Of a stretch of DNA of 64,000 bases, positions 9,472 to 12,393 are shown one piece after another (position 1 is the stretch's first letter; each line of letters opens with the position of its first letter). A model generated the notes under the pieces. The model made no database searches and had not been told where the DNA came from. It was given only the letters and a program-made list of their open reading frames with translations. The DNA is from Woeseiaceae bacterium (GTDB lineage Bacteria > Pseudomonadota > Gammaproteobacteria > Steroidobacterales > Woeseiaceae). The DNA is taken from assembly GCA_021773135.1 (NCBI GenBank), contig JAJFKP010000006.1:1-64000 (forward strand), written 5' to 3'. The position numbers and the translations under genes are program-made.

Positions 9472-9547
9472 TGGTGGGCCCTCGGGGGCTCGAACCCCGG
9501 ACCAAGAGATTAAGAGTCTCCTGCTCTACCAACTGAGCTAAAGGCCC
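9472..9547 (-). tRNA. tRNA-Lys (CTT)
   Basis: This is a 76-nt cloverleaf on the minus strand with anticodon CTT in the loop CTCTTAA, the TTCGAGCCC T-arm and encoded CCA. The acceptor stem pairs GGGCCTT with AGGGCCC (one G.T). A perfect 7-bp hairpin (9557-9573) lies just upstream, possibly a precursor-processing structure. Confidence 0.95.
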
Positions 9548-9548
9548 C

Positions 9549-9656
9549 AATATCCCCTCGTCCCAAGGACGAGAGCAATTGGTTGGTGGATATTGATCTT
9601 TAGTCGGCCGCGAAGAGCAGCGTTCGTTCGTTCTCCGTACCGAACTTGAAACTAGA
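9549..9656. other. Gene-free spacer between tRNA-Lys and the repeat array
   Basis: Apart from the 9557-9573 hairpin, the stretch 9597-9625 contains a degraded inverted match to the neighbouring 76-nt repeat unit (TTTAGTCGG followed by CGCGAAGA, with the middle missing). No coding frame is convincing. Confidence 0.4.
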
Positions 9657-10053
9657 GATCAATTCGCACCTGATTAGCAACTTCGTTTATCATTGCGGCT
9701 GATTATTGTGCCAATAATTCCAGCCGACTAACGATCAATTCTCACCGACTTACCAGTTTTGTTCATCTTCGCGGCTGGTCACTGCGCCAAAAAGATAAAC
9801 CCGCTAAAGATCAATTCGCACCTGATTAGCCACTTCGTTCATCTTTGCGGCCGTTCATTGTGCCAATAGTCCCAGCCGACTAAAGATTAATTCTCACCTG
9901 CTTACTAGATTCGTTCGTCTTCGCGGCTGTTCATTGTGCCAAAGAGAAAAACCCGCTAAAAATCAATTCGCACCTGATTTAGCAACTTCGTTCATCTTCG
10001 CAGCTGTTCATAGTGCCAATAATCCCAGGCGACTAAAGATAAATTCTCACCTA
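9657..10053. repeat. Tandem array of a 76-nt unit, five full copies plus a partial
   Basis: Copies begin at 9657, 9733, 9809, 9885, 9961 and 10038, a period of exactly 76 nt (77 for the fifth, with one extra T). Each starts GATCAATTC(G/T)CACC and ends CCGCTAAA or CCGACTAA. Odd copies share GCACCTGATTAGC and a CCAGCCGAC end. Even copies share TCTCACC, CTTAC and an AAACCCGCTAAA end. The true period is therefore about 152 nt, an A-B higher-order repeat. The array interrupts the tRNA-His to tRNA-Lys interval. It does not fold as a tRNA, although the unit has tRNA length. No open frame runs through it, because 76 is not a multiple of three. Confidence 0.9.
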
Positions 10054-10083
10054 CCAAATTTTCCCGAGCCAGCGGCGAGGGAG

Positions 10084-10203
10084 AATTTGGGGTGGACGAT
10101 GGGACTCGAACCCCAGTGCGAAAAAACGCCGGGATCGACTTCCTCACAGCAATCATAAACTGTGACCGGCCGGAATCACATTAACAATCGATTCCGGTCA
10201 CGC
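10084..10203 (-). pseudogene. Broken tRNA-His copy
   Basis: Positions 10084-10113 are identical over 30 nt to 10235-10264, the T-arm and 3' end of the intact tRNA-His plus four flanking bases. After about 45 unrelated bases, 10168-10190 again resembles the tRNA-His anticodon arm (CCGGAATCACA...). The acceptor 5' half and D-arm are missing, so this copy cannot make a tRNA. It may come from tandem duplication and decay, or from use of the tRNA 3' end as an integration site. Confidence 0.6.
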
Positions 10204-10238
10204 CAAAATACACCCTCAAATTTGATCAAATGAAAATT

Positions 10239-10315
10239 TGGGGTGGACGATGGGACTCGAACCCACGACGACCGGAATCACAATCCGGGGCTCTACCAAC
10301 TGAGCTACGCCCACC
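10239..10315 (-). tRNA. tRNA-His (GTG)
   Basis: The minus strand reads as a cloverleaf with anticodon GTG and the diagnostic extra 5' G (position 10315) paired to the discriminator C, as expected for tRNA-His. CCA is encoded. Its last 26 nt plus 4 nt of flank are repeated exactly 151 bp downstream on the minus strand. Confidence 0.96.
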
Positions 10316-10524
10316 ATTATTCATCACATTGTACTAAGCATAGACCCTAAGTTCATAGACCCTAAGTTCATAGACCCTGCGTCCATAGACCCTGCGTTCC
10401 TAAACCCAAGGTCGCCAGCTGCCTTCGATTCCAGGACGGCTGGTCACCGCGGTTCTGCACTCATTCTACTAAAGGTAAGTTCCCACCTGCCGTTTTCTGC
10501 CGACTAACGAACATCAGGAGAACT
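10316..10524. other. tRNA-Arg/tRNA-His spacer with short repeats
   Basis: This 209-bp gap holds the 15-nt repeat at 10339-10413 and, at about 10436-10490, a diverged copy of the 76-nt unit seen downstream (CGGCTGGTCAC, then CTACTAAAGGTAAGTTCCCACCTGC). No protein gene is seen. Confidence 0.5.
10339..10413. repeat. 15-nt tandem repeat, about five copies
   Basis: Units at 10339, 10354, 10369 and 10384 read CATAGACCCTAAGTT or CATAGACCCTGCGT(C/T). A fifth, diverged copy starts at 10399. The first two copies are identical. They lie between tRNA-Arg and tRNA-His in the transcribed spacer. Confidence 0.9.
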
Positions 10525-10601
10525 TGGCGCGCCCGGCAGGACTCGAACCTGCAACAACCGGCTTAGAAGGCCGGTGCTCTATCCAGTTGAGCTACGGGCG
10601 C
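10525..10601 (-). tRNA. tRNA-Arg (TCT)
   Basis: This is a 77-nt cloverleaf on the minus strand, acceptor GCGCCCG/CGGGCGC, anticodon TCT in the loop CTTCTAA, with encoded CCA. It lies 77 nt downstream of tRNA-Pro and is probably in the same transcript. Confidence 0.97.
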
Positions 10602-10678
10602 GAGTCAACATTTCATAGCACAGCCAAAAACATAGTGGCCCGGCACCCCCGCCGATGTCCATTCTCGATTCAAGTTCT

Positions 10679-10755
10679 TGGTCGGGGCAGAGAGATTCGA
10701 ACTCCCGACCCTCTGCTCCCAAAGCAGATGCGCTACCAGGCTGCGCCATGCCCCG
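10679..10755 (-). tRNA. tRNA-Pro (TGG)
   Basis: This is a 77-nt cloverleaf on the minus strand, acceptor CGGGGCA/TGCCCCG, anticodon TGG, with encoded CCA. It is the first gene of a Pro-Arg-His-Lys series transcribed from the strong promoter at 10800-10828. Confidence 0.97.
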
Positions 10756-10799
10756 ATTCCAGAACTTGAATCCTACCGGCCCGGACCCGGCGGGGCACG

Positions 10800-12299: not shown

Positions 12300-12393
12300 C
12301 AGCCACTCGCGCCGAAGACCAATTTGCGCCGGGCACTGAGGAATCTGAACACACTGCGGGTAAACTGGGACTCCAGTCGCAATGTTTTTCCGT

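Follow-up and report, generated by a model that had tools for sequence, protein, structure and literature searches.

Why should a non-coding tandem repeat stand in the middle of a tRNA cluster, and does it belong to that cluster alone? The question is raised by an array of 76-nt units between the co-oriented genes for tRNA-His and tRNA-Lys in a 64,000-nt stretch of a Woeseiaceae genome (assembly GCA_021773135.1, contig JAJFKP010000006.1, positions 1 to 64,000), which we call the window. The initial annotation had counted six repeat starts spaced by 76, 76, 76, 76 and 77 nt, and heads do lie at 9652, 9728, 9804, 9880, 9956 and 10033. Five of them open array units, but the sixth does not: it is the start of a complete 55-nt copy of an element, here termed E. 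The array was also said to lie exactly between the two tRNA genes; it lies between them but does not reach tRNA-His, as a tRNA-His fragment (10088-10113) and 125 nt intervene. Local spread of the sequence was recognised correctly, while the two “diverged pieces” on which this rested are parts of complete Es (10464-10528 on the plus strand and 9545-9608 on the minus strand). Three complete Es are present in the window, at the 5' end of tRNA-Lys, at the tRNA-His 3' fragment and at the 3' end of tRNA-Arg. The features are as follows.

9472-9547, minus strand: tRNA-Lys (CTT), by ARAGORN and Rfam.
9549-9603, minus strand: complete E, one base upstream of the tRNA-Lys 5' end (d=1); model match 9608-9545, 58.8 bits.
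9652-10032, plus strand: array of five units starting at 9652, 9728, 9804, 9880 (76 nt each) and 9956 (77 nt), by TRF, self-comparison and head search.
10033-10087, plus strand: complete E with a core of 55 nt, its right end abutting the CCA end of the tRNA-His 3' fragment; model match 10028-10091, 59.2 bits.
10088-10113, minus strand: tRNA-His 3' fragment, T-arm to CCA; repeat with 97% identity to 10232-10264 over 33 nt.
10114-10238, minus strand: stretch separating tRNA-His from its own 3' fragment; it contains a hairpin motif whose distance is the same in relatives.
10239-10314, minus strand: tRNA-His (GTG), by ARAGORN and Rfam.
10469-10524, plus strand: diverged complete E abutting the tRNA-Arg 3' end (d=0); model match 10464-10528, 32.7 bits.
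10525-10601, minus strand: tRNA-Arg (TCT), by ARAGORN and Rfam.

Other repeats occur in the same region. The spacer between tRNA-Arg and tRNA-His holds a 15-nt tandem repeat of 4.6 copies (CATAGACCCTGCGTT, 10339-10407, TRF), and tRNA-Pro (10679-10755) is bracketed by a perfect 12-nt inverted repeat (10667-10678 and 10761-10772). A weak match to the E model at 12307-12370 on the plus strand (17.8 bits, E-value 0.0026 in the window) is perhaps a decayed copy.

Every array unit opens with the 19-nt head of E, and the units alternate between two types, A and B. TRF reported a period of 76 (9652-10019) and, with the higher score, one of 152 (9652-10054, 86% matches), and self-comparison gave spacings of 76, 76, 76 and 77 nt. 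The alternation is real since the 152-nt stretch at 9652 matches 9804 at 86% vs 9728 at 68%, which bears out the two subtypes and the duplicated unit of 152 nt proposed earlier. Mutual identity among the copies is 68-89%, so an assembly artefact stacking one sequence is unlikely. Only two units gave matches to the E model, both weak (15.1 and 10.0 bits, E-values 0.014 and 0.37), and hence no complete E lies within the units. They were rightly described as neither tRNA nor coding: ARAGORN found no tRNA in the array, no ORF of at least 100 aa is listed between 9428 and 10944, and against Rfam 15 the array had no match at gathering score, the matches in the window being tRNA only. In contrast, a significance of the period as the length of a tRNA is not supported, as elsewhere the period equals the element (54-56 nt) plus a variable flank, with 73 nt at locus L126 and 177-181 nt in genome G017. 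The 403-nt array as a query matches only itself in its own genome (E-value<=0.001), and 25 of the 29 matches of the 152-nt dimer outside the array (E-value<=10) fall in its first 22 bases. The wide scatter as an ordinary interspersed repeat that the initial annotation had named as refuting its view is therefore borne out by half: the head occurs genome-wide, whereas the whole 76-nt unit was found only in the window; a repeat unique to this tRNA spacer is ruled out by the same distribution of the head. The best reading of the array is a set of locally amplified, decayed copies related to E, the product of an old local amplification and not a one-off.

What, then, is E? It measures 54-56 nt and consists of CTAAAGATCAATYCGCACC, about 28 variable nucleotides and GGGCGRATT, usually followed by GG; 70 copies align to GCA CTAAAGATCAATYCGC A CC, about 28 variable nucleotides and GGGCGRATT GGG. 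A stem with one bulged A is possible (the bulged base is A in 155/169 Es), and its arms vary among copies yet remain complementary. An exact complement of the own left arm lies downstream of 119 of 184 heads, and in 118 cases its start is 47-50 nt from the first base of the head. Where the arm is non-standard (88 copies), its exact complement is present in 46 copies and the complement of the standard arm in 10, while shuffled arms gave a mean of 10.8 and a maximum of 19 in 300 trials against the 46 observed. In the pair counting over the 70 aligned Es, for which seven of the ten pairs had already been selected for complementarity, there were 65 double-changed cells vs 16 in shuffles and six pairs with a double change vs 3.8 (9/500), and further pair types (11 vs 10) were not above shuffles (145/500). 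Because of this preselection, the unbiased evidence comes from the outermost pair, the two inner pairs and the test on non-standard arms (46/88). The outermost, unselected pair is C-G in 63 copies, A-T in seven and unpaired in none, and the two inner pairs are unpaired in 6/70 and 20/70. The right neighbour of E is GGG in 123/169 and TGG in 17/169. Between equal-length copies from different loci, identity amounts to 94% in the first nine bases (inflated, as heads were found by pattern), 85% in the arm and, without such inflation, 34% in the loop and 27-30% in the flanks, with 25% expected by chance. Dispersed Es thus share head and arms but hardly the loop, and are best read from these alignments as a structured repeat that would behave like a recognition site, with head and fold kept and the loop free, rather than as the copies of a transposon burst.

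The head occurs at 51 sites in the own genome (<=3 mismatches), seven of them in the window, and the reversed pattern at one. A covariance model, whose training copies match by construction in all counts given here, detected at least 46 Es in this genome (E-value<=1e-3; 150 of 1441 candidates scored) and, at E-value<=0.1, 43 in G020, 30 in G014, 10 in G017, one in G021, six in G013 and 15 in G032. Across the order, the head (<=1 mismatch) was present in 34/396 genomes, 28 of Woeseiaceae and six from two other families. A GTDB scan returned at least 80 stretches, nearly all from Woeseia, Woeseiaceae and unclassified Proteobacteria or Gammaproteobacteria; exceptions among the matches listed were Bacterium MnTg02 (L071), which the E model recognises, and a Bacilli bin (L085), which it does not. 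Viral carriage of the head was considered and rejected, IMG/VR containing 0 stretches with the exact head pattern. E is an interspersed repeat mainly of Woeseiaceae and of a few related families, for which we found no description in the open-licence literature, and the array is not a local curiosity of one tRNA cluster but part of a structured repeat of a bacterial family.

Within genomes E is mostly intergenic. Of 80 Es in the 80 GTDB loci listed, only nine lie in an ORF of at least 120 aa, though such ORFs cover 84% of the DNA. The 54 intergenic Es of these loci with both neighbours lie between codirectional (30), convergent (17) or divergent (7) genes, and intergenic length is distributed over the three orientations at 58%, 21% and 21%. 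In a set of 169 Es enriched for tRNA-His loci, 17 adjoin a tRNA 3' end, eight a tRNA 5' end, 13 a fragment from T-arm to CCA and one a degenerate fragment. A T-run adjoins 13/169 (7.7%) vs 2.2% of random positions, and 117/169 have no adjoining tRNA end, fragment or T-run. No gene flanked by two Es in the manner of an insertion sequence was noticed when the position lists were read by eye.

A recurrent feature of these sites is duplication. In 57/169 Es a second copy of the right-hand flank lies no more than 250 nt upstream, vs 8/498 with exchanged flanks, a count in which Es of one tandem array enter separately and are not independent; the other 112/169 have no flank duplication at the threshold used. 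One third of the sampled Es are therefore flanked by direct duplications of part of the gene end that precedes them. The right copies start with tRNA T-arm fragments at 13 Es, with the 3' end of tRNA-Lys at L113, with the 3' end of tmRNA at L215 and, as judged by eye, in some cases with a terminator arm. A 5S rRNA end at L092, likewise read by eye, found no confirmation in Rfam and was left out of the count. Tandem arrays occur as well: behind tRNA-Asn in G017 (L235) stand four near-identical 179-nt units, each combining a 3' fragment of tRNA-Asn, a terminator-like stretch and E, and seemingly amplified recently; G017 has further arrays behind two tRNA-Met genes, and our own genome has a tandem array of tRNA 3' fragments behind tRNA-Leu. 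At tRNA-Asn, E stands at the duplication junction in G000 (our own genome), G017, G020, G026 and G032, and the start points differ (by eye, from marked heads), which suggests repeated events. In G030 and G107 the E head is absent at <=1 mismatch, and the tRNA-Asn junction has stems ending flush with it, of 7 bp in G030 (3/300 shuffles) and 9 bp in G107 (0/300 shuffles); the left arm starts 48 nt from the junction in G030, as in G017, and 34 nt in G107. In G139 a duplication at tRNA-Asn lacks any stem flush with the junction.

These observations bear on the view that sees in E an old mobile repeat, now dead, or a BIME-like family whose arrays arose by slippage or unequal crossing-over and whose arms match because they descend from few founder subfamilies. 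Such an origin would fit the low identity of the units in the window (just 68-89%), the differing number of heads in the spacer between tRNA-His and tRNA-Lys among relatives, the near-random loop and flanks of dispersed Es and the few classes that hold most arms. However, founder subfamilies should share the loop too, and the loop is hardly alike; the near-identical units of G017 look recent; differing start points at the same tRNA across genomes suggest repeated events; and slippage alone does not place E at every junction. We consider this explanation unlikely.

The tRNA-His locus allows a comparison across relatives. Of the 107 genomes of the family, 65 matched the tRNA-His pattern. E lies directly behind tRNA-His in 11/67 loci and, in 3/67 (G000, G003 and G032), behind its duplicated 3' end, three contigs among these 67 stopping too early for its presence to be judged. 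Fifteen tRNA-His Es, one of them from another family (G044), have 20 double-changed cells vs 7.6 in shuffles (0/500); 95% of their cells are paired and G-U is absent from the eight outer pairs, while shuffles are not exceeded either in double-changed pairs (4; 271/500) or in types of pair (5; 497/500). In the spacer from tRNA-His to tRNA-Lys, our own genome carries six heads oriented opposite to the tRNAs, together with five spacer motifs. Among head-bearing relatives the number of heads in this orientation ranges from none to three and that of spacer motifs does not exceed one, so the expansion to five units is, within the sample, special to our own genome.

The stretch between the tRNA-His gene and its fragment has a pattern of its own. 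At 10088-10238 on the minus strand, a hairpin motif of the type GACCGGGATC...GATCCCGGTC stands behind tRNA-His, followed by the tRNA-His 3' fragment. Both recur at nearly fixed distances behind tRNA-His in 12/67 loci, including those of genus g11, with the motif at 42-46 nt and the fragment at 126-132 nt, and G277 seemingly has two units of motif plus tRNA-His fragment, 152 nt apart.

The position of E beside mature tRNA ends might instead point to a function in RNA, in which case E would be a hairpin acting as a processing signal or insulator, kept by selection and copied by ordinary recombination. Its location directly at tRNA 3' or 5' ends in 25/169 copies (a set enriched for tRNA-His loci) agrees with this, as does its presence in 14/67 loci behind tRNA-His or a repeated tRNA-His 3' end, with compensatory changes. 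The initial annotation had likewise expected structured RNA from the spacer, and the fold of the spacer does surpass those of 20 shuffles (z -3.7), but both complete Es have outer stems with a pair probability of 0.00 in the long precursor. The outer stem beside tRNA-Lys reaches 0.91 when folded with tRNA-Lys alone, while that of the E at the tRNA-His fragment stays at 0.00 even when folded alone, because an inner hairpin in the loop part competes for the right arm. Such a competitor was found in 7/21 tRNA-flush Es vs 1.9 in shuffles and in 22/120 other Es vs 10.9. The majority of sampled Es lie away from tRNAs, and the absence of G-U from the eight outer pairs is at odds with a selected RNA stem, which would tolerate it. 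A functional RNA hairpin accordingly seems to us a somewhat unlikely explanation.

For E as a folded-DNA recognition site, with the array as a local amplification, we see about an even chance. A putative activity would read E as folded single-stranded DNA and join it to GG at the ends of stable-RNA genes and terminators. Joining of this kind would yield partial tandem duplications, each made of a gene-end fragment, a terminator, a spacer and E. Between tRNA-His and tRNA-Lys, two Es of opposite orientation lie at tRNA ends, and the units between them would have been amplified to five copies in this genome. The fixed head and fold, the free loop, the GG junction and the duplicated gene ends fit a recognition site that is read as folded DNA, and the analogous flush stems of G030 and G107, which lack the E head, speak for it too. 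Counting against such a site are the distributions of RAYT and integron integrase, which do not follow E, the 117/169 copies that adjoin no tRNA end, fragment or T-run, the 112/169 with no flank duplication at the threshold used, the separate counting of Es from one tandem array, those covariation measures that are not above shuffles and the duplication in G139 that lacks a flush stem.

Among known systems, REP and BIME sequences resemble E in several ways: they are short palindromes between genes that may contain a bulge, one end bears an unpaired tag, and a genome has dozens of them. RAYT-associated REPs differ in that GTAG or GGAG was found at the 5' foot of E in just 1/169 (plus strand) and 5/169 (minus strand), and CGTC at the end of its stem in just 2/169 and 11/169. 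The loop differs as well, being about 28 nt long and hardly conserved in E, whereas loop lengths of 2-20 and 4-5 are given for two REP super-families in PMC3733652. A Y1_Tnp match was obtained in 25/36 genomes, and none in G017 or in G020, which is 98% complete and has 43 Es. No E was found in 24 enzyme loci, namely 22 Y1_Tnp loci (of 41 matches listed; E-value<=0.1) and two of integron integrase. RAYT was therefore rejected as the enzyme of E. The three Y1_Tnp genes of our own genome (L172, L173 and L174) lie in loci without the E head; by eye, their flanks carry other short repeats.

The attC sites of integrons are another possible model. Their stems contain unpaired bases, comparable to the bulge of E, and their boxes follow the motifs GTTRRRY and RYYYAAC. 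Arrays of site plus spacer are a further likeness, and so is a fold kept more than the sequence, which PMC2727003 describes for attC. In contrast, GTTRRRY near the right end of E was found in 0/169, RYYYAAC near the left end in 1/169 and both in 0/169, and the spacers at E are duplicated local sequence. Integron integrase was above the cut-off in 5/36 genomes, to which neither of the E-rich genomes G000 and G020 belongs, and with the boxes absent as well, the integron was discarded as the system of E.

The rtT repeats at tyrT of Escherichia coli share the layout of tandem units that each start with a tRNA 3' fragment. Units containing the upstream tRNA 3' end are likewise found at tRNA-Asn and the two tRNA-Met genes of G017 and at tRNA-Leu of our own genome, whereas no more than one tRNA-His fragment stands next to the array of the window. 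In four arrays scanned with Rfam, rtT gave no match, and in the Rfam 15 scan of the loci (E-value<=1) only tRNA reached gathering score. In E. coli K-12, a 19-nt tRNA-Tyr fragment is repeated behind tyrV at three spacings of 178 nt each and has a single copy between tyrT and tyrV. One of the four fragment junctions has a flush 9-bp stem with one bulged base (0/300 shuffles), another a weak 5-bp stem (12/300), and two have no stem; the fragment begins at AATCC and not, as at E, at GG. The word GAACTCYC is common to some tRNA-Asn spacers and the tyrT spacers (by eye), perhaps by chance. We know of no accepted explanation for the origin of tRNA-fragment repeats such as those of tyrT. A far-reaching reading, which as a whole we regard as improbable, would make E a new kind of folded-DNA recombination site, with a putative enzyme recognising a one-bulge stem with little regard to the sequence of arm or loop and splicing fragments of gene ends into tandem arrays where tRNAs, tmRNA and terminators end; the sister lineages G030 and G107 would use a similar shape with another sequence, and the tyrT repeats of E. 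coli might be a relic of the activity. A similarity of rtT to dispersed BIMEs is reported in PMC2965389, a precedent for linking tRNA-fragment repeats with dispersed palindromes. With partial tRNA duplications that recur at the same tRNA, start at varied points and usually have a hairpin at the junction, the question of their origin becomes testable in Woeseia.
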